Shown here piece after piece: positions 4,201 through 60,400 of a stretch of 64,000 bases of DNA. The notes below the pieces were generated by a model. The model did not search any database. It was not told the origin of the DNA and was given only the letters and a program-made list of their open reading frames with translations. This DNA is from Strigops habroptila (lineage: Eukaryota; Chordata; Aves; Psittaciformes; Psittacidae), in NCBI RefSeq assembly GCF_004027225.2, contig NC_046360.1:2530001-2594000 (forward strand), read 5' to 3'. How positions within the stretch are numbered: position 1 is the stretch's first letter; the number at the start of each line of letters is the position of its first letter. Position numbers and translations under genes: made by a program.

Positions 4201-4811
4201 TCTGGCCCCTTCCAAGTTGAAGAGAACCATCTTTGCTCTCAAGCTGCACTGAGAGGGGGGAGATGCAGTCTGGGGAAGCTGAACTATCACTTCAGATCTG
4301 TTCTCTCAAAGGAAAAAAGAAACAAACTGTTTTTTAAATAACATCTGTATTTGTGCAAATATTTACACAAATGGAGGAGTCTGTTTGGTAAATATTACAG
4401 TGGATTATGGGGGTAGTTGAGGTGTCTGAAGATCTCCAGAAGGGATTTTGTGATTTATGTTTTTGTTGACCACCGTCATGTTTCCTTGGTCTCAGTAATC
4501 ACAAAGCAGCTTATTGGGCAGGGGAGGGACACAGGCCTTTCCCCTTTATGAGCCCCCTGCTTGACTTGTGCTGGTGCTGCCCTTGCAGCGAGGAGGAAAG
4601 CCTGTCCAAGAAGAAACCTCGCCTCTTCTGCGACATCTGTGGCTGCTTCGACCTTCACGACACCGAGGACTGCCCGACGCAGGCGCAGATGCTGGAGGAG
4701 CCGCCGCACTCGGCCTACCACGGCAGCAGGAGGGAGGAGCGGCCCTACTGCGACACCTGCGAGATGTTCGGGCACTGGACGGCCGATTGCAACGACGACG
4801 AGACCTTCTGA
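1254..4811 (+). CDS. CLIP1: CLIP1 (CLIP-170), last five coding exons
   Basis: CLIP-170 is a microtubule plus-end tracking protein that recruits dynactin and other +TIPs. The window holds its C-terminal 225 or so residues. Exons are 1254-1371, 1644-1803, 2489-2538, 3856-3980 and 4589-4811, all with AG/GT borders and matching phases. The first exons encode the end of the long coiled coil (charged heptads such as [10 protein letters not shown] and LRGENASAK). The fourth carries [15 protein letters not shown]. The last encodes two CCHC zinc knuckles (CDIC...H...C and [14 protein letters not shown]) and ends in DDETF, the acidic-aromatic tail that CAP-Gly domains recognise. The residues and exon plan match vertebrate CLIP1 closely. 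The 5' part lies outside the window. The last exon is much more GC-rich than the others. Confidence 0.96.
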
Positions 4812-18932: not shown

Positions 18933-19067
18933 ATGCCGGACTCCTTCACCATCCACTTCCTGAAGGTGCTGAGGGAGCTGCTGGCCTTCGTGCTCTTCAG
19001 CTACACCGTGCTGGTCGGGGCGCTGCTGCTCGCCGGGTGGACGACGTACTTCTTGGTGCTTAAATGA
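18933..19067 (+). CDS. Unrecognised 44-residue one-pass membrane protein
   Basis: I do not recognise this gene. An intact 45-codon frame starts at an ATG in good context (GAGCC before ATG) and encodes a short amphipathic lead (MPDSFTIHFLKVLREL), then one hydrophobic span at about residues 17-35 (LAFVLFSYTVLVGALLLAGW), and ends TTYFLVLK. Nearly all codons end in G or C although the surroundings are AT-rich, which strongly suggests selection on protein. A good acceptor (CTTTGCTTACAG) lies at 18873, so the exon probably runs 18874 to about 19225. AATAAA follows 137 bases after the stop. The open frame continues upstream to 18777 across that acceptor, so the upstream in-frame ATG is less likely. 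It sits between VPS33A and DIABLO on the same strand. It resembles small organelle or ER micropeptides in size only; location and role are unknown. Confidence 0.7.
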   Translation: MPDSFTIHFLKVLRELLAFVLFSYTVLVGALLLAGWTTYFLVLK

Positions 19068-20299: not shown

Positions 20300-23200
20300 G
20301 GGCAGCCGGTGGCTCCGGAGCTGCTGCTCCCTGCTCAGGTACCGGCTCTGCGGGGCGCGGCCGCGGGGGGGCCCAGGCGGGTGTTCGATGGGCTCCGCTG
20401 AGCGCCCGTTGTGGCCCGCCTGGAGCGGGCGGCCTGTGCCGCAGCGGCGAGCCTCACCCGTGTCCAGCCGCCGCAGCACGGCCGGAGGAGCACAGGCTGT
20501 GGCACCCACACCGCTATCGCCGCTGAGGGGCTGCAGGTTAAAGCCCACAGCGTAAAAGACGGCACCAGAACAACACCAGAACAACACCAGAATCTTCGCG
20601 GCTGAGTGCTGCTCTTCAGCGATAGGCCCTGAGCCCACAGACACATGCACAAGGGAGGATGTCAGTGAAACTGGCCACAGGAGGCCCTGCTGGGATGCAG
20701 CTATTGCCAGCCATACTCCTCCTCTGCATGTACCTTATACCACTTCTAAGCATGCTTTTTAACTTGTTTTCTACTATTACAGAATATTAGCAGTGTGTTG
20801 GTACCAGAGAAGATACATTTGCACTCTCAAAGGATTAATAATGTGCTAGTTACTGTGCTTGTCTCTTTTTTTGCACTTATAATTAAGTAATATAACAGAA
20901 TTTAAACCAAATTTACCCATTCACTATTACACAGCTGCGTTACAGAAGCTCAGTAGAGAGCAAGGCACCCAGAACAACTTCTAGGTGTTCCCTTCCTCTC
21001 CAATACCCATTTCCCACTGCACACGGGTTACTTCTTGTGCTTACCTTTGTTTCTTGCATTTCCAGACGAAGCCTCCCTGTTGTGGCCAGTGTCAGGAGGC
21101 GCTGCCTCTCGGGAGTGAGCGGCCGATGGCACCAAGTGGTGGGAGTGGGGCTGGGAGTGTCCTTGTGCGCTGTCCCCATTGCGGAGGTAACGTACCAGCA
21201 GAGAGATGTGTACAGAACCTGCTCATCACAAACAGTTTAATACTCAAAAGCACTCACTTAGCGTTTTATAAAGTGATACTTGCCCTCGGAATGGTGTTCC
21301 TGCTTGCGGATCACAGGTGTTTAAGATGTGGTTGTTAAGGAAGAGAAATGAGGAAGTAACACCTTGTTAAAACAGTTGCCTTGTTTTACAGTGGAAGAAC
21401 TGTAGCGAGAATTAGGCTGTCCAGCCTCGTAACTTACAGTAATGCTTTTCCTTATCACTATTTATTGCATCCATATGAAAGTGAGGGTAAAGATCAGGCA
21501 GATATCTTTGTCTTTCAGCAGCAGAATGTGATTTCTCTCAGCAACGATGCCCTGATTAAAAGAGCAGTTTCCTTGGTCACAGACAGCACTTCTACGCTTC
21601 TCTCTCAAACAACATACGCGCTGATTGAAGCACTGACAGAGTATACAAAGGTAAGCTGAGAGATCATGTACAGTGCTAGCAAGTCATGTACAGCACTGGA
21701 AACAGTGAACTATTTGCTCTAACTACATCTGTTAAACCATAATTGGAATGGGCTTTGGCTTTTTTATTATTATTAATAACAGGTGTGGGGGTTTAAAGAT
21801 GTCAGGTCTCCAGGAAACAGTGGGGTAGGGCTCCCTGTGCAGCTATACCACACACAGAAGTTACTTTTAGCTTTGTTAAGACGGTTGCTTTGAGCTTGAT
21901 CTTTAGCCAGAATGTCCCATGGCTCGGAACTGGAGCTAAAGAAACTCGTAACAGGTATTGGACACCGGCATACTGAGTAAGGAGGATGCACCACCCTCTG
22001 TGCTTAGGTATTTTATTTACCTTCTGTGCCCATTTTTAAGACCATGAACTTGAGTTTCATCAGAAGAATCGAGTGAGCCATATTTAAGTCTGAAACAAGA
22101 TAGAGTTTTAATTTTATAAGTGCTAATTTGAGTAAAATACTTGCATTCCAGTTTACCTCCTTATTAGTATGGCAAGCACATAAAGAGATGTGCACAGCAG
22201 TGCTGTAGGCAGAGAGCAAATGCTGTCAGTGCCCCCAAAACTGCAGTGAACTTGAGAACAAAGCACCTTTGGAACCATTCAGCAACTGTACTAACACCAG
22301 TTAACACAGAGACAACATCAGAGATGCACAGATCATCATGTAACTGAAATGATTCCTTTGCAGGCAGTTTATACACTGGTGTCTCTCTACAAGCAATATG
22401 CAAACCTTCTTGGGAAGATGAATTCAGAAGAGGTGGATGCAGTCTGGCAGGTGGTGATAGGAGCCAGAGTGGACGTAAGCAATTGTCTCCCTTCAGTCAG
22501 CAATCTGCCTCTTAAAACTCTGCTCAGAAACTCTCCTCTCGCTGGCTCACCTTTTCACAAAGGCGCTGTTTGGAAGAGCACTCACATACTGCTACATCTG
22601 GTTAAGTAATACTTTGTTTTACTGCTAGGTGAGAACAAAACAGGAGGAATACCTAAGGCTGGAATCCAGCTGGATGACAGCGTTACGTCTTTCAGAGATG
22701 GCAGCAGAAGCTGCGTATCAATCAGGTAATACTGAGGATGTCTTTCCCCTCCCATTTGGGCAGCATTTATTGCGTGAGAACGGAGTCGAGAGACCCAAAA
22801 TATCCATTCAGTTCACACAGCAGTTGGTACCTAATGCCTGGTTTTTAGAGATGCTGAGAACTTCTGTTATTTTACTGGCTACAGATCTAGCAGAAATGTT
22901 TTGAGAACTGGGCCTGGAAACTTCACATATGGTTTAGATCAAGACCAAACGTGCCAGAAAAAGGTTTCGGGGCAGCATTTAGTCATTTCTAAATGCAGTG
23001 TTCAAACATAGCCACAGAAATCAGGCTACCTAGGGGGTCCAGCAGGTCTTTCCAGCTGGACTCACTTTTACTAAAGAGTGGGAATATTTGCCTTTCACTC
23101 AGGAAAGAGACTCATTTTGGTCTTTCTCTCTGGATACACACTTTCACAAAAAGTTGAGGACTTGATAGCTCCAAGATTGAATTATGGGTTGACTTACGGT

Positions 23201-27662: not shown

Positions 27663-28772
27663 TCATTTCCAACCCCTTCCATAGTTGTGTGTTATGGACA
27701 CTGCACACCTGATGCTGTTGTCTTTTACCAGCGTCCACATGATCCACATCTCAGTTGGGTTTAGTCTGTGCACAACCATCAGTCCTTTGTATAAGCATGG
27801 ATCAAAAGGATTGAAAGGTCTCTGGATCCCAAAAGTCTTAAAGCCAGCGTGGTTCTTTGGGGTCACTGCCATCTTCGCCAGGCACATTCCCACAAAGACA
27901 TCATCTATTGGGAAGAGCTCCATGCCCTCTGCGGTGCTCTGGAGGCGGTGCACTGTCTCTCTAGACATGACATAGCCCCCTCCACCCGCATAGAGAGGAT
28001 AAAAGGTGGCTGTGTACATGGACTCTGGAATAAAGTATTTGACCTTGCTGTTCCTGATGGGCCGGGCATTGGCAATTACATCCCCAACAAAGAGATCCTG
28101 TTCAGGGTCCAGCTCATGGAGGAACTCAACAATGTTGTAAGTGTTAACGAAGACATCATCGTCGCCCTTCAGCACAAACCTGGCGTGCAGGCAGTCCTCC
28201 ACGAACCAGCGAAGGAAATGCAGCTCCTTAAGGGTCAAGTTGTAGAAGTTGTCAACAAAATCCCACTGCAAGATGTCATCAAACTCCTGGCTCTCATAAG
28301 CCAGCAGCTGGTGCAGGGGCTGTACCTGGCTTTTGGCCTCCGAGCGCCCTAGAAGGAATACCAGCCTGACACGCTTGCCACCGATGGAGACATCCTTCCC
28401 CCACGTGTTCCTGATTGCAACCCGCCGGTCCACATTGATCGGGGAAGACTTGATGGCCAGCAAGAGGAACACCTCTTTGCTACACCTGGAAGGCTTCCGC
28501 AGGACCGAGAAGTTCCGACAGTGCTTGTATGTTAAGAACACACGGTGAAACTCCGGGAGGGTGAGAGAAGAATTGGCAAGGGCCAGGTTTGGCAAACACT
28601 CACTAGGTTCAGCATTGTCCAGAACCACAGACTGGGCTTTGGGAGTTGGTACATCCACTTTCTCGTCCGCTGATGATGCCGACAGCTTTGCCTCTTTCTT
28701 CAAGTAAAGAAAACACGCCAGCAGTGTGATTGAGAAGGTGTAAAGCACGAGGGTCTTCATCCTGGGGTACAT
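27663..28772 (-). CDS. B3GNT4: B3GNT4, beta-1,3-N-acetylglucosaminyltransferase
   Basis: A Golgi type II glycosyltransferase (family GT31) that adds beta-1,3-GlcNAc in poly-N-acetyllactosamine synthesis. The coding sequence is one exon of 369 residues (human 378). A membrane anchor spans about residues 8-24. GT31 motifs follow: [12 protein letters not shown] (114-125), [22 protein letters not shown] with the metal-binding DDD at 204-206, [16 protein letters not shown] (261-270), and [29 protein letters not shown] and LVVHRL near the end resemble B3GNT4 more than other family members, and the syntenic place agrees. The ATG at 28772 follows a CCGCGCAG acceptor, so the coding exon starts at 28789. 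A CpG-rich 5' noncoding exon probably ends at the donor CCTG/GTGAGT (29043). In-frame codons above 28772 start with GTG only. Confidence 0.95.
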
Positions 28773-28799
28773 GGTGCAGAACGCAGCCCCTGCGCGGCA

Positions 28800-29140
28800 C
28801 ACACAGACAAGCCGGTATCAATGAACCCGCACACTCGCACTTTCCGCTTGCGCCCGCCGCTCGCAGGGACGCGCTCCGGGCTGGTTTCGGGTCCCTCCAA
28901 GCGCTGCCGGGGAACACGGGGGCGCTGCGGCCGCTCTGGAGCACCGGCACCGGGACCCGCCCGGCCGCGCACACCGGCCTCGGAGCCCAGCGCTGCCGGT
29001 GCAGCCCCCGCCCCGCTCTGCGGAGCCGCCGCCGAGACTCACCAGGAGCCGCTGCCGCGCTCGCGCCGCCCGGGAGCCCCGCTCCGCCCCGCGCCGGCCC
29101 GGCCCGGCCCGCCCCGGGGCGGGGTGGGGCGTGCACCGAG
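28800..29140 (-). promoter_or_regulatory. B3GNT4: B3GNT4 CpG-rich promoter and 5' noncoding exon
   Basis: This stretch is very GC-rich and dense in CpG. It contains Sp1-type GGGGCGGGG boxes at about 29112-29125 and a donor on the minus strand at 29043/29042. It is consistent with a CpG-island promoter and an untranslated first exon. Confidence 0.6.
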
Positions 29141-29150
29141 CACCGGGCAC

Positions 29151-29609
29151 TGCACACCGCGAACTGCACACCCCGCACTCATTGCACACCCTGCACTCAT
29201 TGCACACCCCGCACTGCACACCCTGCACTAATTGCACACCCCGCACTCATTGCACACCCCGCACTGCACACCCTGCACTCATTGCACACCCCGCACTCAA
29301 TGCACACCGCGCACTACACACCCCGCATTCATTGCACACCTCGCACTGCACACCCCGCACTCATTGCACACCCCGCACTAAACAACTACCCACTGCACAC
29401 CCCACACTGCAGAGCCTGCAGTGATCAACCACCCACCGCACAGTCCACACTGAACCACCACCCAGTGCACACCCACCCATTGCACACCCTGCACTGAATA
29501 ATCACCCATTGCACAGCCTGCACGGAACAACCCTGTGTTCCACACGCACCCATTGCACACCCCACACTACACCCCTCGCATTGCACACCCCACCCCGCAC
29601 ACCACACGC
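29151..29609. repeat. Minisatellite of TGCACACCCCGCAC-type units
   Basis: Tandem units of mainly 14 bases (TGCACACCCCGCAC) and 18 bases (the same with CATT or AATT added) run unbroken to about 29390, then decay into scattered related units to about 29609. All three frames stay open for long distances because of the repetition, producing spurious His/Thr/Cys-rich open frames. The array lies directly upstream of the B3GNT4 promoter. Confidence 0.9.
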
Positions 29610-32010: not shown

Positions 32011-35000
32011 TCACCACCCTCTGCCCAGCCAGCTCCATTCTCTGTCACCTTTGGCAGATGTTGAAGCTTTCCGTTTGGCCTGACTTTTACTCTCTGCTTT
32101 TGGGTTTTTGCTCTTGTCTTTGCTTTTCTTCTTGTCCTGTGGAGAGAGCTGTTTCCATAGTTAGGCTGTGATGAAACTCACTGCCCGCATTCAGTCCTGT
32201 GACTGCCATCACCATCTGGGTTCGGTCACGGGGATTTAAAGGGCAGAGGAAAGAAGCGAGGGGAAGCACATGCACAGCGGAGGGGATGTTCAGAGAAGAG
32301 AATCCAAGAAATAGAAAGTGTGAGTTGGGGTGTGTTGCCATGCTGAGAGAGCATCAGAGGAAGCACGAGGGGTTGCTTTCATATTCTCAAGTGGAAAAAT
32401 AAACTCATCTATTTTCCTAGGCCCAGAAAAAGTAGCAGTACTTATTGCTAATATCAACAGTAAGTAAGGATACCAGCAGTGATGGATGATGCTCAGGCAG
32501 GGCTATTTCAGCCCCATTTTATGGAGAGGAGAACTGAGGGATGCATGGGAGGGATGTCCAGGCCAGGATATGCTGAACCCCAGCCTGCAGCACTGCCCAT
32601 CCCTGGCAGCTCTGCCTCACGTGCCCCGGGACACACTCCTTACCTTCTCCTCCACACTTGGTGGCTGAGGTGGTTGTTCAGTGATCAGGATCCCAAAGTC
32701 ACACAGAGTTGTCACCAGGTCCTCAGTGGCCAGCAGAGCCTCCAGGGTCACCTTCCTGGTGCCCAGGGTCCTCCGAATGGGAGGGTCACTGCGGAGTTCA
32801 CATGACTTTTCCTTCTTCTTTTTCTGCTTGTCCTTGCGTGCAGGACCCTGCAGGGCACCAGTGCAGGGATAAGCCTCAGTGGAGGGCTGGGGTCCCTTTA
32901 TCAGACAGCAAACCCCAATCCAGCCCCTTGCCCACCACTGCATCCAGAGCAAGATGTGTGTAGAACTGCTGCTGCCTTCCTCCCATAGCAAGGGGGTACT
33001 TTGGTGAGAGGTCTGGGATGGAGGAGAGATTCTCTGACACACCAAAGTGATCCAGGAGAAGGGTCCTTGTTCCCCCACCATCACTTTGCAACTTGGGTGT
33101 TATTCGGGCATCGTGCTCTCCCAGCACCTACCTTGGCACCGTCCATCTGCTGCCCTCGTCCTGCTTTCTTATTTGTGTCTGTGTTTTCTTCTGGATCAGC
33201 TTCAACAGGCCATGAGAGCACCTGCCCGGAGAGAGGAGCTGGTGCTGCAGGGACTGGGACACCCGAGGACCCTGGTCCAGGGTCACTGCCATCCCGGGCT
33301 GCATCCCAGAGGGAACACAACACCACTGCTGGGCCTCCCACCAGCTCCTTCCCCTTTCATCCACCTTTGCTACACGCTCACCTTCTCCTCCACAACAGAG
33401 ACAATCGTTCCAGCCGCCAGGTAGGACTTCAGCCTCATTAAGTCCTTAACAATATGCTCCTTCCTGTAGCTGTAGTCGATGGTATCTTCCCAGGGCTTTC
33501 CAGGGGTGACAAACACCTTTGCTGTGCAGGACACAAAAAACCTTTGAGAAAGCTATCCTTCCTGAGGACAGAAGGACCCCCAGGACACAACCTGTGCCAA
33601 TTCATTATCCAACAGCCCCAGTAACAGCCCAGCTGCAGCCAACACTACAAGGGACAACCTGATGCCACCATATGCCAGGAAGAGCCATAAACCTGCCCTG
33701 AGCAGTGGGGCAGGAGATCTAGAATTCCTCCTTACCAGAGCTGGCCTTGGGCTCCTCTGTGGCTGCAGGGTCCTGCTGGCTCTTTGTTTCTCCCGTGTCC
33801 TGAGCAGAGCTGTCCGCGTCCAAGGTGGCCACCTCAGGACTCTGATGGATTTTTGTCACCTGGAACAGAGGTGGATCTCTTAGCAGGGCATGTCTGGTTT
33901 GCATCAGGACCAGGGAGCAGAGCTCTGCATGTGGGAGGTGAAGTGCCCCTTTGCTGTAACCTGCCACTACCTGTTGCTGTCGGGAGCTCTATTAAGCACA
34001 AACCTCAGTGCTGCTGCCGTTGTCAAGCTCCTCTCCCTCCACAAACTCATATGTCACACAGTAGCTGTAGGTGATCACTGGAAAGCCGGAGTCATCCGCC
34101 AGCTGCTGAAGAGTGCTGGGATCAGGGACTCCTTTCATGTCCCCAACACTCACAACCACTCGTGCTTCACTCCTCATTAGCTCTAAAAGGAAGACAATCT
34201 TGCTATGAAGCTGCAGCGTGCTCCTTCCAGAGGGAGGGCAGTACAGAGCAAGTGTAAATCGGTGATTTACACTGAAATCACCGGTGGAAATCAGGCGAGG
34301 AAGTGTCCCACCACCTGGCATCCCTCCCTGCCACCTTGTGCTAACGCTGTGACAAGCCACTGCCACGTGGGGTCACTCCAAAGCCACACAAACATCTCTT
34401 GCCTTGGTTGCTTTGCCTCCCTGGTTAACACTGTAAGACTCCAAAGAGCACATCCAGTGCATAAAGTCATTGAGCAGTGGCCATCAAGAGGGGTTTCCTA
34501 CCGCCGGGGTGTCCCCAGCCCCCTGCTCTTGTCCCACCTGGGGATGTGCCATGCTGCAGAGGTGGCAACGCTTTGTGTGGGCAGTGCAGTACCCATGTGA
34601 GCATCTTCCCTAGGGGAGATGTTCCTCTTTCAGCAGCTGGAGAGGAAAACACAGTCTGAAACCAGACAGTGTCTAGAAAGCAAAGATGGGGGCAGAGTGT
34701 GACACCAAACCAGTGCTAGGACTAGACTGTTCTTGCAACCTTTGAACCTGACTAAGGCTAAAACTACTTCGAGTGTAATCACACTGCTGCAGGGTTCTCT
34801 GCCTGTCTCCCCACTTGTACTAGTGGGGTAAAAAGGCACAGAGAAAGATCTCCATTTGAGAAGAGGCAAGAGGGAAGTCAGTACTGGGTCCAGAGTTTGC
34901 CCTGAGGACTCGTAGCTCAACCATGGTGAAACCACCTCCTGAATCATGGAGGCAGCAGAGAGAAGTTAAAGGGTCAAGACTCACCTGGCTGCCTTGCCAA

Positions 35001-36922
35001 ACCAAGGAACTGATGCCTCTCATCAAACCCTATGTGGATGTCATCGAGGACGGAGAGCTTGGGCAGGCTGTCCACAAGGAAGCCTCTGTAAGTGGGAATG
35101 AGAGCCAGCGGGTTCCCTTTGAGCACCAGGATGCGGAGCTTCTCCAGACTGGACAGTTGGGAGACCAGCCCCAGCAGATCCGTTAAGTTGTTAAAGCTCA
35201 GGTCAAGAGAGACAAGATTTGGCCTAAGGAGAGAACCCAGAGAAGAAGGTTAGGCAAAAGCATCCATAAAGCTGCTATCCTGGGTCAAAAAAGAAACAAA
35301 ATCTGCGTTTCTCCAGCACAAACTGGGCCAAACTGGGGAATCCACTGGTACAATCTCAAGAGGCCAATACCAAATTCCTGCCCCACAACTCAAACCCATG
35401 TTTCTCTAGCATCCATGAACCACTCAACTGCATCATTTGGTGATGCAGCCTAAGCTTTAGATCCTTCCCAGGGCAGACTCCCAACAGGGACTTTGGGAAG
35501 GGCATGGAAAAAGGAAGCTACCCAGGGACATGGGAACTGTGGTGGGCAGGGTGTCAAGATAGTTCCCCAGGTGATCTCCCTGTTCCACACCTTGGCCACA
35601 GACCAAGACAACTTCTGAGCATGAAACACAGGCAGAGACAAATCGCTCTGCACAGGCAGCAGACACAGAGCAAAGGAACAACCCTGCTGAAGGGCTGTAA
35701 TGTCCTAACATGGGCCACCTCGATGGCTTCAGGTCATCTGTTCACATCTGCCCTTCTCCCTTTCAGGAGCCCACCTACATCCTGTGGCATTACCAGAAGG
35801 CTGCAGTGAGGAACTTGTCCTGTGAAGGTCCGCACAGCCTGTTGTATCCCAGCCCCAAGTGCTGAAGCTCTGGAGGAGGCTGAGCACACAGGTCCTGCAG
35901 ATCAGCCACAGCATTGCAGCAGAGCTCCAGGACCTGCCCGGGACAGGGAGAACAACAAACACCCTTTGCAATGAGTTGTTCCCGACATTCCCCCAAGCTC
36001 TTTGGTTTGCACTGTGTTCCCAGATGGGACCTCCTTCCCCATCCTGCCATTGAAAGGGATTGCTCACTTACCTTCAGTGTCCGGGGCAGGTTGGCTGAGG
36101 TTATCCTACTGATGTGGTTGGCGCTGAGGATGAGCTCCTCCAGCTGCTCTAACTGCAACAGACCCTCATCAACCTCCTCCACCTGCAAAGAGTTGGGTTT
36201 GGCCAATGTGTCCCTGAGCCACCTCCTGGCCAAGGTGACAGAGACATGTAGTGTTGATCTACATGACACATGTGTAACATGGATTAGTGCAACACGCTGG
36301 GGATGGGGCAGTAGCTCTACTCCAGCAGCAATAGTGGCACCTGGGAAGTCCCAGGGATGGGGAAGGTGTCCTTTCCTCAGGACGTTTTCCCTCCCAACAG
36401 GGAGACGTGGTTTCCTGGCCTGGAGATGAGCAGCTTTACGGGTACCAGCAGATGCACTTACTCCCTTGTCAACGATCCGCAGGGACTTGAGAACCCTGAA
36501 GACGTTGGAACCACGGATGAGCTTGGGTTCCAGCACAGCCATTTCCCGCAGGTGCTGGTCCTGGGGGCTGCAGCCTGGTGGCAGGGCCCAGGGGCTGTGT
36601 TGGTCCTTCAGCAGCTCTATCAGTGCCTCAGGGCTCTCCTCACTCGGTGGCATATCCTCCTCCTGCCCGGCCGGGTCTGCCCACAGCCTCGGCTGGCCCC
36701 CACGGCGGCTCCTGCGTGTAGCAAAGCGGGACTTGTTCTGCAGAGAGGGAGAGAGCAGAGGTAGTGACAGCCCTGCAGGCCACAGACCCCCAACCACATC
36801 CCATGGCTGTGCCCCCCAGCCCCTACCCAGCTGCCCAGGCCACAGGGGAAGTCCTGCAGAGCCAGCTGCCCCAGCTGCTCCTGAAGAGCAGCAGAGACAC
36901 TGCAGGGACCGGGTGCTGCCAT
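32011..36922 (-). CDS. LRRC43: LRRC43, leucine-rich repeat protein
   Basis: LRRC43 is a leucine-rich-repeat protein expressed mainly in ciliated cells; its molecular role is unsettled. Eleven coding exons on the minus strand: 36922-36827, 36737-36462, 36182-36072, 35933-35794, 35223-34985, 34182-34004, 33859-33736, 33521-33382, 33221-33132, 32847-32644, 32136-32011. Phases agree and give about 574 residues (human 656). The N-terminus [10 protein letters not shown]...FPCGLGSW joins NKSRF, as in mammalian LRRC43. LRR cores are [52 protein letters not shown] and [21 protein letters not shown], followed by a cap ([12 protein letters not shown]). The C-terminal third is acidic then Lys-rich ([21 protein letters not shown]) and poorly conserved. 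The last exon may be longer or spliced differently, since the reading runs to the first TGA. Confidence 0.9.
32500..32545 (+). mobile_element. Possible MIR-type SINE fragment
   Basis: CCCCATTTTATGGAGAGGAG followed by AACTGAGG resembles the MIR core (CCCCATTTTACAGATGAGGA, AACTGAGG). The match is short and the flanks are not convincing. Confidence 0.3.
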
Positions 36923-39164: not shown

Positions 39165-40838
39165 ATGAAATGCCGAGCAGGTGGGTACCACTTAACCTTG
39201 CTACTTGTTGTAAGGTTGCACTGGTTGGTGTTCATCATCAGCTCAGCCACTTCATGTCGATACGCTTTAGACATTTAGCACGCTGCACAAAGGCAGGAAG
39301 CTTTGCAAAAATGATGTAGAGGTTTGAGACTCATCACCGTGTTCTTTCTTTTTTGTCTTCTTTCCCCTCTTCATTTGAATGCAGAGATCAACAGGTTTGC
39401 AATCTTCCTCTTCTGTTCACTGGTTCCTTTGGGCTCCTTGGCACCAACAGCTACTTCGGAAGGAAGCAAAATTACTACAGGACAGATACAGGAGCACTAT
39501 ACTACCCCAATAAAGCCCTTAGCTTCGGTGATAGAAAGGCAAGCAACTGCCTTGTTTAAGAACTACGTAAGTGTACTATTTTGCATTTGCTGTGTCTGTG
39601 TCTGTGGAAAAATCTCTTAAATTATTATAAAACACTAGAAAGATCATCAGAAAATAAGTATTTGGGTTAGAACCTAAAATAGTCTCTTCTCTGTATTCCA
39701 CACAAGAAGGCAGGCATTTACATTGCAGTATTTTAGGGCAGAGTTGGAGCAATGTCTAGGATGGCTGGGGAAAGTTTGGGCAACTTTGCCTCAGCTAACT
39801 GCTAGGTCTGATCTTCCAGACTAAGAGCATTGTTCCTTCTTGGCTTCCTGAGTCATGCTGGGCTTGAAGCAGGCATCTCTTTTGAGGTGATCGCTGGAAA
39901 CATGGAGAGAATCACTTTACTCTTCAGTCTGATCCTACTACTAGAGCAGTCAGGAGCACTTCTGCCGAAAATCCTCCTTGGAGATGGTACAACGTGCACT
40001 GAACCCAAGTATCAATGCTTCAGACACATTTCAATTCCTGGGAACACGTTGATACAAATCAACATAAACATTTCCCCCCCATTTCATTCTTGAAATCAAA
40101 ACCACCTCTGCTGAAACAGATGAAAATATACTCAGGCCCAAGCAAATCTTTGCGTGAGTAGATTTTGCCCATATGGCAAAGGAAAAAAAAACAAAGCCAA
40201 GCAGTATATTAAGAAAGAAAGTTCTGCACAATCATAGCCACAGATAGTGTGCAATACCTACTCGATAAAAGGAGCGTAGGTGTTAATACAGCCATTAAAC
40301 AACAACAAAGAAACCCAAGCATGCACGAACTGAAAGATAGGTGTGATGTGCCCAGGCATTCAAACACAAAGCAATTACCAGGAAAGATGCAAACCAAAAG
40401 ATTAACAATGTCTCTCCTTTTCCTCCTCTACAGAACACATGTAGCTCTGTAATGCCCCAAACTGCAAGCTGGTTCGCTGCTGCCTCCCAAGCCAAAGACA
40501 TGGTGAAGAAGATACCCAAGTGCCCAGCTTTTGATGCAGGTTGCTGCTTTTTCCATGTTTTTTACAACATTTTGCAAGACCTGAGAAGTGACATAGAATC
40601 AATCTGTGGTAAGAACTCAACTCAGTTCGTTGATGCAAACATCAGTCAGCTGAATGTGATACTGAGTGAACGAGCTGCCCTTTACACCTGCAAGAACAAG
40701 GACCTTCCACACGTGGATCGTAGCCAGGTCCAGAGGATGAAAACAGCAGACAAGAAGATGTACATCTGGTGGGTTTTAGAGAGATACAAACAATTTATGC
40801 AGAACATGACCAAAATGTACTCCTCAGCAGAAATGTAA
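39165..40838 (+). CDS. IL31: IL-31-like secreted helical cytokine (putative avian IL31)
   Basis: Three exons, 39165-39180, 39385-39566 and 40434-40838, with good AG/GT borders and matching phases, encode 200 residues. A tiny first coding exon carries MKCRA plus one base; the ATG context is GCC ATG A. Residues 10-25 form a signal-peptide core (FAIFLFCSLVPLGSLA) with likely cleavage near 25. Predicted helices: about 47-66, 79-93 or on to 123, 130-150 and 164-195; the last (MYIWWVLERYKQFMQNM) looks like helix D of IL-6/LIF-type cytokines. Cysteines lie at 69, 96, 103, 104, 124 and 152, and N-glycosylation sites at 67, 127, 135 and 190. The gene lies between LRRC43 and MLXIP and runs opposite to both, as IL31 does in human. 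The 3' UTR is AU-rich. Primary-sequence similarity to mammalian IL-31 is slight, so the name rests mainly on synteny, gene plan and fold-like features; another IL-6-family cytokine is possible. Confidence 0.68.
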
Positions 40839-41442
40839 TATGCTAGGATGAAAAAATAAGATACTAGTCTTGGCTAAATGTGACCCATCAGTAGTGTTGC
40901 GATCAGTTTGATGCCAGGAACAACAACGATCATGTACTTGCTATTCTACATATTTTAACTATATTATCTAGTTTAATTTAATATTTAAAGGAAAAGCGTC
41001 TCAAGTGATTGATTGTATTTATTATAAAATTATTTATACTGTTTTATTTGCAACAGCATAGAAAAACTATGGACTAATGTAAGTCAGGGTGATTTAATTA
41101 ACCAATACAACATGAGCAAACAGAAAAGCATGTCTGCAGTCATTTTGATGTTACTTATGTTTTTACCTTGCAATTTTATCTCAAAAGATGTCAGTAGACT
41201 AACTTTGTACTTCTCTTTACTAGTGAATTGCATTTACGAATTCATATAATACACTTATTTTTATAAATTTATTTTAAGAATTATATAGTTTATATCTATT
41301 TATTCAGATTTTAAACTTTTATATTTTAATACTGAAAGGGATAAACAATATATGTGCTACTTCGTAGGTGAATGGGTTTAATAATTTTCTGTCATTATAT
41401 TTGGATAGAACCTGGAATTTAATTAAAATGAGATTAAATAAA
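40839..41442 (+). promoter_or_regulatory. IL31: AU-rich 3' UTR and poly(A) signal of the IL31-like gene
   Basis: At least seven ATTTA pentamers occur after the stop (for example in TATTTATTATAAAATTATTT near 41017, and near 41260 and 41297). AATAAA follows at 41437-41442. Such AU-rich elements mark short-lived cytokine mRNAs. Confidence 0.7.
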
Positions 41443-44400
41443 ACTATTCTTGTTGGATTCTCTTTTTACCATGTAATTCTTTTTTACAATATTTTTTTTC
41501 CCTATAAACCTGGTGTTTTATTAAACAGCAAACTGAAGTAGCTGTTTCTGGTCCTAATGCTACAGATACTAGAAACAGCACGTATCCTCCTTTCCCATCC
41601 ATTTTTATTCATAGACATGAAGTTTTGTTTCTTAAGTTTCTAACTGGTTTCTTGTTTGGATACACCATTGTTTTCTCATCAGCCCCTACTTCTGAACGGT
41701 GAATTATTGTTGGGTTAGCTCAGACACAACCACTGAAACGCGGCTGAGCTAAATACTGCTCCCGAGCTGGTAACAGAGCAGATACTCAAATGGTTGAGAA
41801 GCAATAGGATTTATCATATACTTGTCTTTTCCTTTATTTCATATCAAGTCCTGATTATCCCAAATAATGGGAAGGTTAATAATAATACAATTATTATAGT
41901 CTAAAATACCTCACAAAGTTCAAGCCAGTCTAAGCATTAGAATCAGTTCCAAAGTTATCATTACCTATATATAAAAAAATTCCAAAAATTAACATTATTT
42001 AGCTATAGATAAAAAAATAATTTGACTCGAAACACCTACTTAAACACAAGTAAAGGATTACTCCTCTTTCTGCTGCCATCAGTGTGCTCATTGGTGGTGG
42101 TCCATACTAGGACACAGCCTTGTGCAGGGTATTTGTGCTCTGAATATCCAGGGAACTGCAGCTGGATTGAGCCCCTGTGTACCAGTGCTCCTCTGCAAGG
42201 CTGTGAAAAGCCCAAGGGGAGCTGGAGAGAGGGATTTTGGTACCAGCTCATCCTCTCCGTCCTCCTTTCAAAACCTCTCCATGCAAAATACATCAGTGCT
42301 CAACTCACCCTCCTGCTGCACTGGTTCTTCAAGGTGGTGCCTTTAGTGCTCAGGAGCTGTAGCTCTTCCTCCCATTGCTGGAGGACTGGTCCTGCTCTGC
42401 CCAGACTTCTCCAGGAAAAGTGATTTAATGCCATCAGCCCAGTCACTACCAGACCCCAAAATGCACCAATCGGGGGGGGTCCTAGTAAAGTATTCCAGTT
42501 TCTCAAATGGAACAGAAGGACCAAACTCCTTGCCAGAGCCAGGGGAAGAATTCCTCTCAAATGGAACCAATTTCAGATGCCATCATGTCACATAGTGACA
42601 ACAGGCAGAAGGATGCGGACAGATCTGAGACTGTTACCCTGGTTTCTGGTGTTAACACAAGTAGCACAGCTCTCTTGATAGTGCCACATATTGAATTCAG
42701 AGAACGTTTTCATTAACCACCTCTGTGACCTGTTTGAGCTTTGCACAGACATGGTGAGTCCAAAGGTGGGTAGTTGCTCATGATGTCTTCTGTATTGTAA
42801 AGGTACCTGCCAGTCCTGAGAGTCTCAGCACTAACCCCCATGAGCAGCAGATACAATGGTGGCTGGGGCACTCCCTCAGATTAGTCTTCTTAATTCCAGG
42901 TCTATCAAATTTTCCAGGGTCCAAAAAGTGCAATTTCAACCTCATCTCCTTAATTTTGAATAGAGGAAGAAGAGTGACTGGAAAAAGATCACTGACTGGG
43001 GATGCGCTTATCCCCAAGGCAGAAGCAGCATCTGCTGACCTTATCAGCTAGGGTCAGCAAACCACCACAAACAGGAAGACATTTACAACCTGAGGGGTTA
43101 GATGTCACCATTTCCAATGGCTGACACAAACCGCTTACGCCTTGCTGAGCCAGAGGATTATACAGGGCCAGTCCCTGCGGCTTCCTCTCTTTTCTTTCAC
43201 TTTGTGAATATGTAAATAGCCAAATGAAAGTGTTTTCCTTGGAAAGGACAACAGGTTTCCTCAGAAGCTTAAACAAGATGTTAAAGTGAGTCAGATGGTC
43301 CGTCCCAGTTCATGTCATGGGAAGAGCAACCTGAAAAGGAAGAGTTGTTCTTCCCCACGAGGGTACTGCCAGCCCTACAGAGTCAGCTCACCTCCAGAGC
43401 CTGAGCTCACCCACATGGGAGCTTGAAGCAGGGAGACACAAGCTTATGCAAAACTTGGCATAGCTGCTGTTCTCCTCACATGTGCTTGAAAGATAATGGT
43501 GCTTTGCCACAGGCGTTTTGGATGCAGCGAGGCAGATGGGCTGGCTGATACCAGAACATCAAACTTCAAAGGGCTGAGGTCAGGAAGTGATGACCAGCAC
43601 CTCACTGAGGAGTTGGAATGAGAGTCTAAGTGCATGCCTGAGCAAGCGAGACAGAAACAGCAACTGCAGACAGTCTGATGCACAAAGTGACACAACTGCA
43701 CCACTACAGCACTTCTGACACCTGCATTATGCTCATTACTGCAAGTTAATATAGCAAACAGCCGCTGGTGCTGTCAGATATCAGTTTATTTAGGTTCTGT
43801 AAGCAGCCTATGGATGTGTGGCTGCTCAGACACTGTCTTTCTATCTATCCTGATACAGTTGGTTCCCCTGGGCAGACATACAGGCTTCTTCTTGAAAAGC
43901 TCTTCCCACTTCTCTGAGAAGATGGGGCAGCTTCAGAAAAGGGAGGGACATTAAACAGGTTAGAGTCACGTGCTGGATAACTGAGCTTGGACTGCACAGT
44001 AAAGAAGATGCAAGGGCCAACTAGTAGCCCTAACGCAGAGGTGGTTGTGTGGTTTCCTTTGAGAAGTTCCTTATTTAACCTGATTGAAAATGAAGCTGTT
44101 GGCATTCATAGCTTCAGAGGAATGAAGAGCTGAGATGGAGTAGTCACAGTCTTACATGGGCTTTGTAAGACATGTCAAAAGGGCAGGCAACCGCAGGACT
44201 TAGGGATGTGATGAATCTAATCTTTTGTGGGTTTGTTTCCATTTTGTGATGGAAAGGCGTTGGGGTTTGTGATACACATACCTTGTTCCAAGACAGGAAC
44301 ACATTAAACATCTCTCTGGATGACAACAGGGACTCTTCAGTGTTTGCACACAGGGAACTTCCCCAACACCCAACTATTCATTGTCTACCCACCTCCTGTT

Positions 44401-51404: not shown

Positions 51405-54400
51405 TTAGGTTTCACCAGCTGTTTTGTTCATCTTGTTAACTGCCTCAGCAGCTTGCTCTGGCAGGCACGATGGGTCTGACAGAATTGAGGTGGTCGTACT
51501 TAGATGCCGGAGGGTGTTCAGCACCACTGTAAAAAAAAGTCAGAGAAGCATCAAGAAAAGCTGTTAGTCTGACTGCAAACAGATCCATGCAGGACAGTGT
51601 GCAGGTACTGCAAGGCTGTTAGACAGAACTATGGAAATACTTGTGCAAAACATGCACACCTCCACACACAGTGACAGCAATAAACAGATGTGCAAGAACT
51701 GTGCCCAGGGAATAAGGAATGGAGATGTAATACTTTAAACGACCCACCTATTTCTTCTACAAAAGAGGGCAGTACATGGGAATTACAACTGTAAATACTT
51801 GCTGAATTGCAAGGGAGAAAGGATCAAGCAATCATGCGCAGACAGATCGTCATTCCAAAACTGAACACGAATCTCCAAAGTCTTCCTTCAGAATGAGATA
51901 AATCACACTGCCAAACTTACTCCAACTACAGTGGAGTATTTGAAATTTAAATGCAGCTTGAGACTGTTTAAATTCTGGTATCTACATTTGTGGTTTGGTT
52001 ATTTTTCTGTTCAGCATTAAGCATGCAACTGAGCGTCTCTGCAGTCAAAAGAGGTTCTTATTTTCCACTGAGATAATAAAAAGGAACTGGAAGTCATATT
52101 CAACATCATATCATGTGATTTCTTTGTCACCATCTGGATTTCAAGAAATAGTGTTCTATATGGTCTTGCTTTCAATGATCTGGAATAACTGCTGGATAGA
52201 ACTTCACTTACTTGGCCTTAGAACAGGAAGAGAACAGTGCTGATCCAACCACGCCATTGCAGTTTGATTCAGATCCTTAAGGCTTGTTGAGGAAACCATC
52301 TCACTGAAGGACTCAAACAATGGCTTAATAATAATGCTGAACTGCAAACCATCAAATGTTAAGGGAGACAACAAAGGAGGAATTCGAAACATTCTATACG
52401 AAAGGCTACTACAGCCAGTCTGCAGAGAAAACAATGGACTTCTGAACAGACTGCAACTACTACAGGGATTGCAACATTTCAAAGAGTCTGTTTTACATCT
52501 TTAACATTAAGACAAAGGAAAAAAATGACCCTCAGTTCAATACGGACCAGAACAGTAGCAAGCTGAGGACTGCCAGGCTTTTATTTTGGCTCTCTGTTGT
52601 CACAGCTTGGAAGGATGGGCTGGAGTTGGCAATAACCTTCCTGGCAGAAAAGGAGCAGACAGAACTTTAAGTCTGTAGTGTATTAAAATGTATAGAACAG
52701 CACCACAAGCCTCAGCTGCCCCAGCTCCCAGGCTTTCCGATGAGCTGGAATATCTAAACTCAAAACAGCTTCTTCTAACATCACCACAATAATTCAGCAA
52801 GTAGATTCCAGCTTACAGGTACATTTATTTCAGAAGCTGGTTGGATGATAAAACTCATGTGAAGGCTCAGAATCTGTGGTTTTACCACGTTACTCTGGAT
52901 GTCAGCAGCATGTGAGAATGTGGCCCAAACCAATCTCAGCATTGTCATGCACCCCTATCTCACTGTAGCTGACAATCAAGATAGGTCTAATAACACTTAA
53001 GGGGATTTACATGCTCTTACACACTTTGACAGTGACTGGAAGACCAACATGGGTATTATTCTATTGATATTCTAATATTCAAGAGTATTCTATTCTTGGG
53101 TTATCTCTGGTTGCCCAAGAGAAACCAGATTACTCATTTCCCTCCTATACGCAACAGAAACTATGGCATTTTCATATTTGTAATGAAACTGCCCTTCTCT
53201 TACAGTCATTCCATGAGGAGGAGGATTTTTATTATTAACACTCACCCCTGGACCTTGTCAGCTTTTACTGCCATGCATTAAGGATTCAATCCAGCTATCA
53301 GAACAACTGCTGAGTCACAGTTACATCCTGACTTGTAAGGGGAAGCTTGGGAACGTTACTTTGCCTCTCAACCTCTTCTTTCACCAACTACAAAAGCCTT
53401 TGTCTTTCCCCAAACAGGACAAAACCCAGCTACCCAGAACTGCATCTTCATCTCTGAAAACCTCTGCCACTTTCTGTAAGTGTCTCACTTCCAAATTCTG
53501 GAGATATTTAACATTGTGGAGCAGCATAAAATAAACACACTCTCCCATCAGCAAACATGTGCAGGATTGTCTTTAGAACATCAATGAAACTGGTTATTTA
53601 AAAATCTCTATTTTCATAATTTACTTGGAATTGTTACAAGGTTAATAGTGCTGCAGAATCCAAAGGTTCCACAGTGGCACTAGCCTTAAGCTATCAAGAG
53701 TTTGCCTCAGAACTTGCTAACAATTCTTTCCTAAAACAACGCTAAAAGGAAGAGTCTCTTTTTAGGGCCAACATAAACCAGGAAACACCAAAAAAAGCAT
53801 TTTCATATATCAAAGTGTTAAAAATACTGCCCTTTGTGCATGCACATATATACTCATGTTATCCAGGGAGTTAGAGGGAAATAACCAGTACAGAACACAG
53901 ACATAGAAGACCTGAAGTGCAAATAGCTACATGAACAAATGAAGTTTAATGGGAAAAGGGAAGGTTAACACTAATGCTCATTGCTAATTACTAATAGCCC
54001 TGAACTGGTCCAAGCTAATCATGTTTGAGCCAAACTAGTTCAGTCTGTAGAGCACTGACTAATCTTTCATTCAGTTTGTATCTTTCTACCTCCTGTATTA
54101 TCATCTGCTTACAAGCACAGCTGCTGGCAGCACTGGAGAAGCAAAGAGAAATTAAGTTGATTCCCTGTTGTAATAAAAGACAAACAAAAAACTAAAAGAA
54201 AATTCAAAAGAAGAAGGGGAGGGAGAAGAGAACGTGCAAGTTTTTACAACTGTCATTGCAACAGCTTCAGCAATTGTTTGTAATAGTTTTTTCTCCAAAA
54301 TCTTTGTTATTCTCTATTCAGTTTTTCCAAGAGACAACAAGAACTACAGTTACAGCAGCAGTCCAACACTGCTTGCACTATAATAACCCACCAAGAAAAC

Positions 54401-57400
54401 CCTGCCTTTGTACTGCATTTTACTTTCAAGTTACCTCCCATACTTTAAGGTGAACAATTTCTGCCTCACGACAGCCAATAAGGCAGGGATTCATATCCAC
54501 ATACAGGTGTGAATGAAAACTAAGAACAGATGTCATTTAAACAACCTGGCTTGAAGCATGAAAATCCAGAGTTCTTGGCTCTATCAGCACCAAACCTCAA
54601 GTTCAGCAGGTTGATATAAAAGGATACAATCCAAAACTTCCAGTTCTGCAGGGTCCTGCTTCTCACATACTCATCAAACATCCTCCTCATGTGGTCAAAC
54701 CTTTGCCGTGTTACACGAACCCCGGTAGCAGGGAGCTGCTGCTGACAAGAACTGCAAGGAAAATGTTCTGAGGTCAGAATCCCCATCAGAAAGGACACTT
54801 CTCTTCCAGACTAAATTATAGCAAGAGAAAAGTGTGTATCCCCAGTATCCCTGAACCAAGGTGGCTTCCCAGTGCATGACCCCCTCCAGAATGTGATTGT
54901 TATAGCCAGGAATACATACTGTTTTCCCATCAATTTTGTCTATATTCACACAGCAAAGCGATTTCTCAAGCTGCTACACACTTCTCATTACAAGCAACAA
55001 AGCTGAAAACAAAGTATAACATAGGACAAAGTAGTTTTTGGCATCCAATTAGAAAAAGTCACATTAGGAGTCAAGGAAAAATTTACAGGGTTACTCCTGA
55101 GCAACGTTACAGAAGAAAAATGTTACAGAGACTCTTCAGAAACAGATCAATTTTAAATGAAACAAAACAGACATCATCATACTTTTAAAGAAAAATCACA
55201 GGCTTGTGATTTGCTGGGAAGTCTAACATAATGCCTAAGCCTAACACAGCTGTAGATGGAAGAAAAACCACCGGGGTTCTCAACATGCTTTGCAATAGCA
55301 CAGAACTACCATAAACCCACAGAGGAAACTGAGGCACCAGGAAGGTGAAGTGACTTATCACAGTTATGTTCAGCCAGTGGCAAGCTTCTTGATTCCAAGT
55401 CCTGTGTCTTATGTACTCAACCTTATTCTCCTATAAAGACTGACTGCATTTGGAAAGAGACCTGCAGCAAAGCCATCATGAAGAGTAAGTGTCTGATCAC
55501 CCAGTGAGCATAGCTTTACAAAAACATGTCACTGGCTTCTTCTCACAAGTGTTCTAACTGACCTGATGCATCTTTTCTGATGCTGCCACGGTTGGGCATC
55601 CCTGCTCACAGCTTGCTGAAAATCCACATGGTTTGCTACCAATGCCCATCCCACAGCAACTACGCTTCTTGTTTGGCAGTTGGTAGCAACTCTACTTCTG
55701 TTCAATACCCATCTGCCGTTTGGCATGACATCTGAGGCAAACATTCCCTGTTGTTAGCCAAAGCAACATTCAAGCTGCTCTGCTTCATTACAGAAAGCTC
55801 CCCAAATCTCACATGATGGCAGCGTTTAGCTCCTCGATTTCTTCCCGAAGGCGCCTGGTTTCCTCTTGCATCTGTGTTCTTTCCTGCTGTAGTTTAGCGA
55901 TATATTCTACTGTTTTCTGGAGCATGATTGCATGGCTGATCTAGACCAAACACAAACATAGAGCTCACTTTCTGGAACAAAGCTAGACAGATGAAGAGTT
56001 TGCCCCTAACCTGCTGTAACACCCAGAAAAGCACTTCAGCACCTTTTCTTAAGCTTCCTTCACTGTGTGCAAAAGGACAGAGGCAGAGCAAAATACTTCA
56101 GATAATACTAAACTCTTCATTTCTCTGACTCCTGCCTGCACACTAGTACAGAGAAATGTGGTTGCAGTGGTTGTTTTCTTCCACAAATTACAGTTTTGCT
56201 ACTTTGTTGGAAGAAATAAGTTAATAATTTGTTTCATTACCTATCCTCTTAAAAACATTTACAATTCTTACTGAAGTACCGAAGGACGTGCTACATCTGC
56301 TGATAGATTTCTTGACCTGTTAGAAGCTTTGTTTGAAGTTGACAATATAGATTATTTAGTTTGGGAAACCAGAAGTTACTAACAGAAGGCAACACAGCTT
56401 AGGTACCACCAAAGGAGACAGCAATAATGTCACAGATTCTTTTTAAAGTACCACTCAGTTTTGAGTAACAAATCAAAAATCTCAAGAAATAAAATAATCA
56501 GACATTTTACTAAAGCCGAGTTTTCAAAACCGATTAACTTTCCAATCAGGAAGTCAAGTTCTGACAACTTACAGCCTAAATATACAAAACTATAATAATT
56601 ATGTGAACAAATCAACACGCTGCTTTGATATTTTCCGTGTTGCAGGAGGTACTGGCATTTAAAGGACATTTGTTGTGCAGACAAGTCTGTGTTTCAATTA
56701 CTCTGATTTCAATTTAGTGACCTGCGTTAACCAGTATAGCCAGAAAATGTTTTTAATTTGGACAAAGTCATTTGACAATGAGAAGTCAGTTGGGTATTTT
56801 TTGCTCTCTAAATCTATGCACAGGTGATGGGGTCAAAAACCAGCCCTGAAAGTATTCGCAAGACTGTGGGCATAGAGACAAATACTTTAAGGCAGCTGGG
56901 GGGTACTAGATGTAAAGTGTCCTAGAGGGACTTTCAAAGCCATCTGAGCTGGCCAGGCTCCTGACTGCTCCTGGCAGGCAGAGATCTCACTGGTGTAGGA
57001 AGCTCAGAAATGTCACTGGACCTTTTTGTTCTTCCTTTGTCTCACTGACGTGCTTCCACAGTATTTGCAGGCACACAAGATTGCTCTGCTGTGCTCTCAG
57101 CTGTGGTTCGCATGGCATGAAGCCTAAGCTAACAAGTTGTGCTCATAGGTGGGTATTATATTACCTCAGGCCAAATGTCAAGGCATACTAAGCCAGGCCC
57201 AGCATCGTATCAGCAGCATCTACCTGGCTTCTGGCTGGCTCATGGTTCAGCAGAATAAGCTTACAGTACTGGCTGGACCATAGCTTTTTCAAGTGCAGCT
57301 GTGGGGACCAGAACCCATCCAGAACAGGCATAAAAAGCCAGCATGTCAGAAGAAAGGTGACCTAACAGTAAATGGAAAGTCATCTTATGCTGCAAACATG

Positions 57401-60400
57401 ACAAAACTCTTCATTATTGGGGTCCCAAGAGCAAGGATTGCAAAGATCAGTTTTTCTTCTTTCCCTGTTGGCTTTAAAGCTGCAGCATCTCATCAGACAA
57501 GACTTGTTCAACATCTGAAGCTGCATCAGAAGAACGATGTTTAAAAGATGAAGTGTTTTCACACACTCTTTTGACTGTAAACCATGGATTTATCACCCCT
57601 CTCTTTCCAAGTCCCTCAGTTCAAGTATCTTCACTGACTGACTGGCATTCCCAGTTGACAGTGAAGAGGTTAAATTTACTAATAAGTCTTTTCAGAATGG
57701 CTCTTTCTTATATTTCATATTAAACTTTAGTGCTGTCAAAAGTTACTTACCGACTTGGAGTTGGTTGAAACCAAGCTGTTGAGAGTACTGAAACCAATCT
57801 TGATATTAAACCTTCGTTTTTGTTCTGAAATGTGCTTCATTCTTAGATTCTGCATAAATAAAATCAGCTCAGTCTATGCTGTTCTCCTTGAACATTCTAC
57901 TGCTATGACTATTTCAGCTATTCAAATTCACAGTGTAATTTCTGTTGAATTGCGGCATTCATAGTCTTCCCAAAGCCATCTTTGCAAAAGTTATTTATTA
58001 AATAACTTAAATATTAACTTAAATATTAAAGTTATTATTAAAGTGTATTAAATTCCATTCCAAACCTCGTAGGTTTTCTTTCTAAAGCAAGAATTCCTAT
58101 CTGAGACTGCTAAATGATTTAACTTTCTGAAGTCAAACTCCAATTTGAGGCATGCAATTAGTTAGGATCTTGTTGAAATCTTTAAGCTTAAAACAGTCTG
58201 TATCACTTATTCCTAATACATACACACGATGTAACAGGCAGTCTGACAAAAATGAAAAAGAGAATCCACAACTCTGGCCTACCCTGAAGATAAAGGCTTT
58301 GTAAGGAATTAGTATTTTCATTTTGTAGCATTAAAAACTTACAAGTTGTTTCCATCAAAGGAGTGTGCACTTTGAGAACGCATTTTTGGCAGAGCCAGAC
58401 TTCCTGGCAGTAGCTCACCATCACCCCATTTTATACTGGGGGAAAACAATGTAAAAATGTAGTAAAGTGGCTAACCAAAACCACAGAAAATGCAGGTTCA
58501 AGAGCAGAATTGAGATTTCCAGTGCTTTGCCAAACTGAAAAAACAATGTTACCCAGCAATACAGAACTGTTTAGTCTCACCGACAATGCAGAGGAGCAAA
58601 AGAACATATATCTGGAGACTGGCAAGCACCCCTGTTTCTCTCTTGTCTCACCAAAGTCACTAACAGCACACATCCGAAGCAATTCCTGTCTAAGCAGGTC
58701 AGTTTACACGGCTACAAAGCCCATCTCGTTGCAGTGTCCTTACTTTCAACAACACTCCTCCATCTAGCGGCCACTTTCCCATCGTCTGCAAGTCGTAATA
58801 ATTTGCTCCTTTGCTAACTTGCTCTCTAGCAGTAAGAACAGGCTGCAACTACTGGTAATACTGATGTTAGGCTGATTATACAGGCTGAGATACTGATAAT
58901 TTATGCCAAGCAAATAACTGCAAACTTTTATCAGTAACTTGCAGTATGCTCAGCAAGGGGCAGTTCTGATTCTCCTCTGCAACAGAACTAGAGTTGAGTG
59001 CAATCACAGAGAGTGTTTGAACTTACCTTTCTGCCCTGGGAGTAAATCAAGCTGACAACAACTCATAGGGTACACAGAGAAGCCAAAAAGGGGTTGGCAC
59101 TTGCAAAATGGTTAAGTAACACTCCCTTTCACAAGAGAAGGAATGAGAGGGTTACAGCTGATTGTCCTGCATTGGTGGTTTTTTGTGGGAAAGCTTCTCC
59201 TACCATCACAGAAAGTGTTGTGACAAGCTCAGCTCGTGTGTGAGGTACAGCCAGCTTTCAGCTGCCATCTCTAGACCGCTGAGTTCTCACCCCAGTAATT
59301 CTCAAAGTGTTTTACAGCTGTAACTTGTGGAGTCTGTGGAGCTGCTTCTCTGTGGAGCAGCACAGCATCACAGGAGACGTAAGTAACTCAGCAGGTCAAG
59401 AACTCCCCCTCCAGCGATGGCCAAAGCTCTGCAGACTGAAGAGCCCCAACAGAACAATGGCAAAAAGCCATGGTTTAGAAAACTAAACCTGAAACTTTTG
59501 ACCAAGTAAACTGAGGCCTGTCATAACACTCCTGTGAGCCACAGCAGGAACTGCTGTCATGACCATAAGGACCTGCAGAGGTACGGTTAAGCCCGGCCCC
59601 TCTGGTGACACCTCCCTGAGGAGCAGAGTAGATCACTGAAGTCTGACATTTTAAATTGAACAGAACAGCACAAGTTAAATTGAACATTTTAAATGTTCAT
59701 TTTAATTTTTAAATTGAACAGAATTTTAAATTGAACAGAACGGATGCAGCACAAGCTATGCCTAAGGCACAAACACTTCACTGTTCCTGAAGCACAACCT
59801 ACTCTCTAGACCATACTCAGACTTCAGGGCAGAAAAGTAGTTACAAAGGCAAAGAAGAAAAGCACCTCAAAGGAGCAGACACGCACCTTAAACGCAGCTG
59901 TATTAGAGTCAGTGGCAGGTTTTCCTGAGCAGTTGTTCTGGGGAGACTGTGGACTGGGGCTCTGCTCAGAGGTGCAAGGGGAGGCTTGGCCTGAATTCTG
60001 ACAGTCTCGGCCTTCAGAAGGGAAGAAAGACAAGTCACATCAACAAACAACTTTCTGTAGCAAATGGAACTGTTGAGAAGTTTCTAGTCAGAACTGAACC
60101 GAAATACAGCTGGCAACAAAATTATACTCACTGATGCAGCAAGCACATGCTAGAAAATGTCAAGACTGCTGGGAAAGCTTAGTACTTCATGGCACAAGGA
60201 TAATACATCCCAATAGTTGGATGTAATACTCCCTTCACACACACATGTTTCAGCAAAGGTATGTGGAACACAAAGGCTGCAATTCCATCATCCTGCTAGA
60301 CTCCTCCATCTGAGGCTTTAATGGCCTGGGTCATGATGGTAACACTCACAAGCCCTTTACCAGCAAAACCAGCATACGTCTCAAATCAGCCCAGATATCG

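Follow-up and report, generated by a model that had tools for sequence, protein, structure and literature searches.

Gene structure

We analysed a window of 64,000 nucleotides from Strigops habroptila (RefSeq assembly GCF_004027225.2, contig NC_046360.1, positions 2,530,001 to 2,594,000 of the forward strand; coordinates below are those of the window), in which a preliminary description had pointed to 39165..40838 as a candidate avian IL-31 gene. The gene model, its position and its orientation can be read directly from the DNA. On the plus strand, exons 39165-39180, 39385-39566 and 40434-40838 join into 603 nucleotides that translate into 200 amino acids and a stop, with no internal stop. Both introns are GT-AG, the first in phase 1 after exon 1 and the second in phase 0 after codon 66. 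Splicing and translation thus bear out the three phase-compatible exons that had been described, as well as the first coding exon of only 16 bases.

Coding exon 1 (39165..39180, 16 nt) supplies MKCRA and the first base of codon 6; its ATG has a G at -3, an adequate start context, and its donor, CAG/GTGGGT, scores 5.7 by a simple splice-site matrix. Coding exon 2 (39385..39566, 182 nt) carries the remainder of the putative signal peptide and the predicted helix A, and lies between the acceptor TGCAG/AG (2.1) and the donor TAC/GTAAGT (2.2). Coding exon 3 (40434..40838, 405 nt including the stop, 134 residues) may be read as an AB-loop helix followed by helices B, C and D. Charged residues open the protein and a hydrophobic run, FAIFLFCSLVPLG, follows, much as in a signal peptide; the best 10-residue Kyte-Doolittle mean is 2.82, and it is by hydropathy only that the signal peptide of the preliminary description stands. 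Of its four N-glycosylation sites three remain, the canonical N-X-S/T sequons at residues 127, 135 and 190, since residue 67 reads N-T-C only and falls outside the canonical count.

Past the stop lies a putative AU-rich 3' untranslated region (40839..41460, plus strand, its end provisionally placed), which agrees with what had been claimed: these 622 nt are AT-rich, with ATTTA occurring nine times and AATAAA at 41437. Of 621 further, overlapping stretches of this length taken from the window none has nine or more pentamers, although shuffling the bases of this AT-rich stretch yields nine in 2.8% of cases. The single AU-rich element nonamer is unremarkable (29% of shuffles).

Genomic neighbourhood

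Pfam and tblastn place the genes of the window, from left to right, in the order CLIP1, a Sec1-family gene, DIABLO, a B3GNT-type gene, LRRC43, the candidate and MLXIP. The two immediate neighbours matter most. LRRC43 exons (33995..36919, minus strand) stand head-to-head with the candidate; human LRRC43 as tblastn query gave five pieces at 38-61% identity (best E 2e-23), and leucine-rich repeat profiles match the region below their curated cut-offs. On the other side are the 3'-end exons of MLXIP (51432..57843, minus strand), covering the HLH-zipper and the C-terminal region, found as five pieces at 60-71% identity with the human MLXIP C-terminus; the HLH profile matches there at E 0.0012, just under its curated cut-off. 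Both flanking genes are therefore on the minus strand and the candidate is on the plus strand.

In mammals, the IL31 strand is likewise opposite to that of LRRC43 and MLXIP. Given the matching neighbour order and strands, the candidate occupies the IL31 site on the expected strand, and the locus claim of the preliminary description is correct. For the order we can point to a horse gene list which, in its accessible part, names, within a single interval, MLXIP, IL31, LRRC43, B3GNT4, DIABLO and CLIP1 and omits VPS33A (PMC6402180). The accessible part of a table from a human genome-wide association study lists B3GNT4, DIABLO, IL31 and LRRC43, and also VPS33A, near a CLIP1 variant (PMC5897035).

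The more distant genes are all on the plus strand, with the exception of the B3GNT-type gene. The last exon of CLIP1, with zinc knuckles, is at 4470..4808 (Pfam CLIP1_ZNF, E 5.9e-17). The exons at 8720..13346 belong to a Sec1-family gene (Pfam Sec1, E 4.1e-12; a second piece at 0.0082 is below the cut-off), which we take to be VPS33A. DIABLO exons lie at 21360..22901 (Pfam Smac_DIABLO, E 1.1e-22 and 6.2e-14). The galactosyltransferase gene of B3GNT type is a single long frame at 27666..28817 on the minus strand (Pfam Galactosyl_T, E 1.4e-44), putatively B3GNT4, a name given from the locus alone.

Some further features were seen among these genes. Between the Sec1-family gene and DIABLO, a splice-acceptor-like site is followed at 18933-19067 (plus strand) by a frame of 44 codons and a stop, MPDSFTIHFLKVLRELLAFVLFSYTVLVGALLLAGWTTYFLVLK, whose product has the look of a single-pass membrane microprotein. 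Units of 14 and 18 nt (CATTGCACACCCCGCACT and shorter forms) are repeated in tandem at 29148-29429, immediately upstream of the B3GNT-type gene when read on that gene's strand. A 101-nt interspersed repeat has two copies, 96% identical, near and within the Sec1-family gene (5943-6043 and 11048-11148), and a 108-nt local duplication (97% identical, spacing 121) is at 16234-16462. Around the candidate, in 37500-42500, repeats amount to short pairs of low identity. An Rfam scan gave no match at gathering scores, and two patterns for the ends of CR1 elements had no match either.

A gene or a chance frame

It could be argued that we are looking at a chance frame, or at a decayed and untranslated remnant of IL31. 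We therefore searched both strands for three-exon models that begin with a short coding exon, continue through a middle one and close with a long terminal one, encode 190 amino acids or more and have a hydrophobic N-terminus. The splice thresholds were the candidate's own lowest scores, which makes this search post hoc. The candidate is the sole model of its kind in the window. Among 2000 random 7-kb sequences of local trinucleotide make-up (second-order Markov), four contain at least one such model, and 35 do when the hydrophobic N-terminus is not demanded; an earlier run gave 0/100.

Several observations speak for chance or decay, and it is fair to gather them here. The first acceptor (2.1) and the second donor (2.2) are weak by a simple matrix. 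The codon usage signal is also weak: exon 3 exceeds 97.4% of noncoding windows (top 2.6%) but stays under nine of the ten training exon pieces from neighbouring known genes, and one of its antisense frames scores about equally (-0.044 vs -0.039). Frames of the length of that in exon 3 arise in 1.6% of random 4-kb sequences when these follow the regional composition, and in 14.6% when they have the composition of exon 3 itself, hence the length of this frame alone is weak evidence for a gene. On the contrary, 200 codons remain intact across three phase-compatible exons, and only four of the 2000 random sequences give a model of this kind. In our opinion the candidate is very probably a real gene, and a chance or decayed frame is a very improbable explanation.

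Predicted fold

AlphaFold2, run on the single sequence of exon 3 alone and without a control, gave a mean predicted local distance difference test score of 66.8 and a predicted template modelling score of 0.59, with helices at 10-24, 35-58, 60-76, 96-105 and 107-130 (exon numbering). Among the fold matches of this model cytokines occur more often than expected, no single match being significant. In exon 2, an amphipathic stretch has a moment of 0.45-0.46 in the 18-residue windows that start at residues 45 and 49. Modelling and comparison thus point, weakly, to a helical cytokine fold and to a family resemblance.

Would another kind of secreted helical protein, outside the gp130-type cytokines, explain the data as well? 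No family profile matches the candidate, and the helical models of exon 3 resemble many folds weakly, interferons included, which is what such a protein might show and which counts against our interpretation. However, the over-representation of cytokines among the fold matches, together with the fit of the position and of the 3' end, makes us consider this explanation improbable.

Comparison with known cytokines

The preliminary description held that the resemblance to mammalian IL-31 is too low to settle the identity by eye, and in our searches too the sequence leaves it unsettled. The IL31 profile PF15209 has no match in the candidate at E up to 10, within the limits of the HMMER filters, while human (4.2e-57), mouse (6.9e-50) and dog IL-31 (5.1e-54) are all matched. 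This profile is presumably mammalian, so that the missing match lowers the claim to IL31 by sequence, not by descent. Under the same filters, and without a positive control, the LIF/OSM profile PF01291 has no match at E up to 10 either. The sole Pfam match, DUF5600 below threshold (E 0.04-0.09 for the full protein, exon 3 and the mature form), was taken as chance. Searching the PDB sequences with phmmer returned three chance matches only, at E of at least 0.21, and of four pattern matches in viral contigs scanned with exon 3 none was confirmed.

Whole-length alignments scored against shuffles give a graded picture. Globally, IL-6 comes first (z 4.3), followed by the LIFs (3.1 and 2.6), OSM (2.6), CLCF1 (2.3), dog IL-31 (2.0), CNTF (1.3), mouse IL-31 and G-CSF (0.8 each) and human IL-31 (0.5); IL-11 and CTF1 are below zero. 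Locally, mouse IL-31 (2.5) and LIF (2.3) are highest, with human and dog IL-31 near zero or below. The high place of IL-6, which is also among the fold matches, is not matched by its local score (z 1.8, P 0.054) or by hhalign (9/60 shuffles as good). Moreover, the IL-6 gene has five exons and another locus, while the candidate has three.

A further family resemblance is at the C-terminus, described earlier as helix-D-like. In six of 11 members (OSM, the three IL-31s, CLCF1 and IL-6) the last 30 residues align best, without gaps, on helix D, against a shuffle mean of 1.2 (P 0.003, 5000 shuffles). Eleven of the 12 sequences entered this comparison, the second LIF being left out as a near-duplicate, and knowledge of the family guided the placement of the helix-D windows. 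Thirty segments along the candidate were compared in this way, and none with a start before residue 161 attains more than three members. The ungapped helix-D score is 20 for dog IL-31 and 18 for LIF; the LIF register ties with another place in LIF, and it was entered as helix D in the segment alignments and left uncounted in the six of 11.

We also aligned four predicted-helix segments locally with the 12 cytokines. For segment D in the correct register, dog IL-31 (P 0.018) and OSM (P 0.034) are significant and human IL-31 is not (0.215). Segments A and B are significant for none of the 12 (best P 0.07 and 0.22, respectively). The top scores of LIF for segments C and D, and of mouse IL-31 for D, were discounted because they align non-corresponding parts.

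Profiles were also compared by hhalign, with matches that span 16-24 columns. The LIF+OSM+CNTF-group profile scores 19.67 against 19.6 for the best shuffle (0/60 as good; probability 1.8%), and the CNTF-group profile 16.85 against 15.8 for shuffles (0/60). Shuffles as good number 3/60 for LIF+OSM, 9/60 for IL6, 17/60 for IL6+GCSF and 11/60 for IL11. For a three-sequence IL31 profile they number 36/60.

Identity of the candidate

These results raise the question of whether the candidate is a LIF/OSM-type paralogue, brought to the site by local duplication or translocation independently of mammalian IL31 and acting via LIFR/gp130 or OSMR/gp130. Here too a part of the evidence goes against our interpretation, including the two missing IL31 matches, by PF15209 and by the three-sequence profile. 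Of the local resemblances, those to LIF carry most weight. At the exon 2/3 junction, ATALFKNY/NT of the candidate faces ANALFILY/YT of LIF, placed at what we take to be the human LIF exon border (ungapped, P 0.00095 by shuffles of the 20-residue stretch, the comparison being chosen after looking). Where helix C ends, the candidate has C-x6-HVD; the pattern C-x6-H[VI]D, also chosen after looking, occurs in 95 of 200000 shuffles and in two of 12 members, both LIF. Both profiles that exceed all 60 shuffles include the CNTF group, one of them together with LIF and OSM. The length of about 200 amino acids is closer to LIF (202) than to human IL-31 (164). LIF is encoded by three exons, the first of them with very little coding sequence, and its second intron comes after helix A in phase 0; the candidate has this structure as well.

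Nevertheless, LIF and OSM sit at another locus, while the candidate is found at the mammalian IL31 site and on the strand expected there. Without gaps, its helix D aligns about equally well with IL-31 and with LIF, and of the two Cys in LCRLC of LIF it keeps one in the aligned stretch. The FxxK motif at the start of helix D marks LIFR-binding cytokines, but the candidate reads A-D-K-K at this position and does not keep the motif (human IL-31 has H-E-C-K, dog F-E-C-K). Taken together, we regard an independent LIF/OSM-type paralogue as unlikely, although it is the main rival of our reading.

Mammalian IL-31 shares with the candidate the site between MLXIP and LRRC43 on the opposite strand, the small, secreted and predicted helical product and the helix-D register, and differs from it in length, in the unmatched profile and in a pairwise likeness to the human protein that is not significant. 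The candidate is probably a gp130-type cytokine. A cytokine of this type at the IL31 site and on the IL31 strand is most simply an IL31 orthologue, and its nearness to LIF is most simply accounted for by a form of IL31 closer to LIF/OSM than the mammalian protein is. Judged by its sequence only, the candidate does not belong to IL31, hence the name IL-31 rests on position. As for the preliminary reading, bird IL-31 or a close IL-6-family relative, weak signals from fold and sequence speak for the gp130 group, and the IL-31 name is retained by position, with no profile match behind it. Based on all this, we consider it likely that the candidate is a genuine gene, probably inducible, whose product is a secreted four-helix cytokine of long-chain gp130/IL-6 type, and most likely the IL31 orthologue by position.

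Secretion, receptors, orthology and function are inferred. The signal peptide of the precursor would be cleaved off near residue 25, up to three sites may carry N-glycans, and the protein would fold with helix A from exon 2 and helices B, C and D from exon 3. Its mRNA, rich in AU-rich elements, would give short-lived transcripts. By analogy with IL-31, the secreted ligand would bring together two receptor chains, one IL31RA-like and one of OSMR/LIFR type, contacting the second through the N-terminal end of helix D, and thereby start JAK-STAT signalling. For mammalian IL-31 the receptors are IL31RA and OSMR, according to the accessible part of PMC13115606.

Implications

Six names for an avian or chicken IL-31 were absent from all of 5.39 million papers, and no title listed by our other searches concerned an avian IL-31; the searches did not extend to annotation databases, so that an earlier prediction or report is possible. 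IL-31 was unknown in fish as of a 2016 review, in the part available (PMC4929537); 'chicken' occurs for antibodies only in the accessible part of PMC11910226, and PMC1963337 mentions neither IL-31 nor chicken.

It is tempting to speculate that bird IL-31 exists as a LIF-like, 200-residue missing link which retains the exon junction of LIF and its motif at the close of helix C, and that a LIF/OSM-type gene gave rise to IL31 before mammals and sauropsids split, with a shortening in mammals. We offer this tentatively, as somewhat short of an even chance. If true, the IL-31 axis of itch and type-2 immunity would be at least as old as the amniotes.

IL31RA is probably present in birds. A bird IL31, if confirmed, would push the origin of the ligand back to the amniote ancestor and supply a ligand with which bird IL31RA may be tested. 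It would also mean that a cytokine can keep its locus while its sequence drifts past the reach of profile searches, and it could raise questions about skin, feathers and type-2 immunity in poultry.
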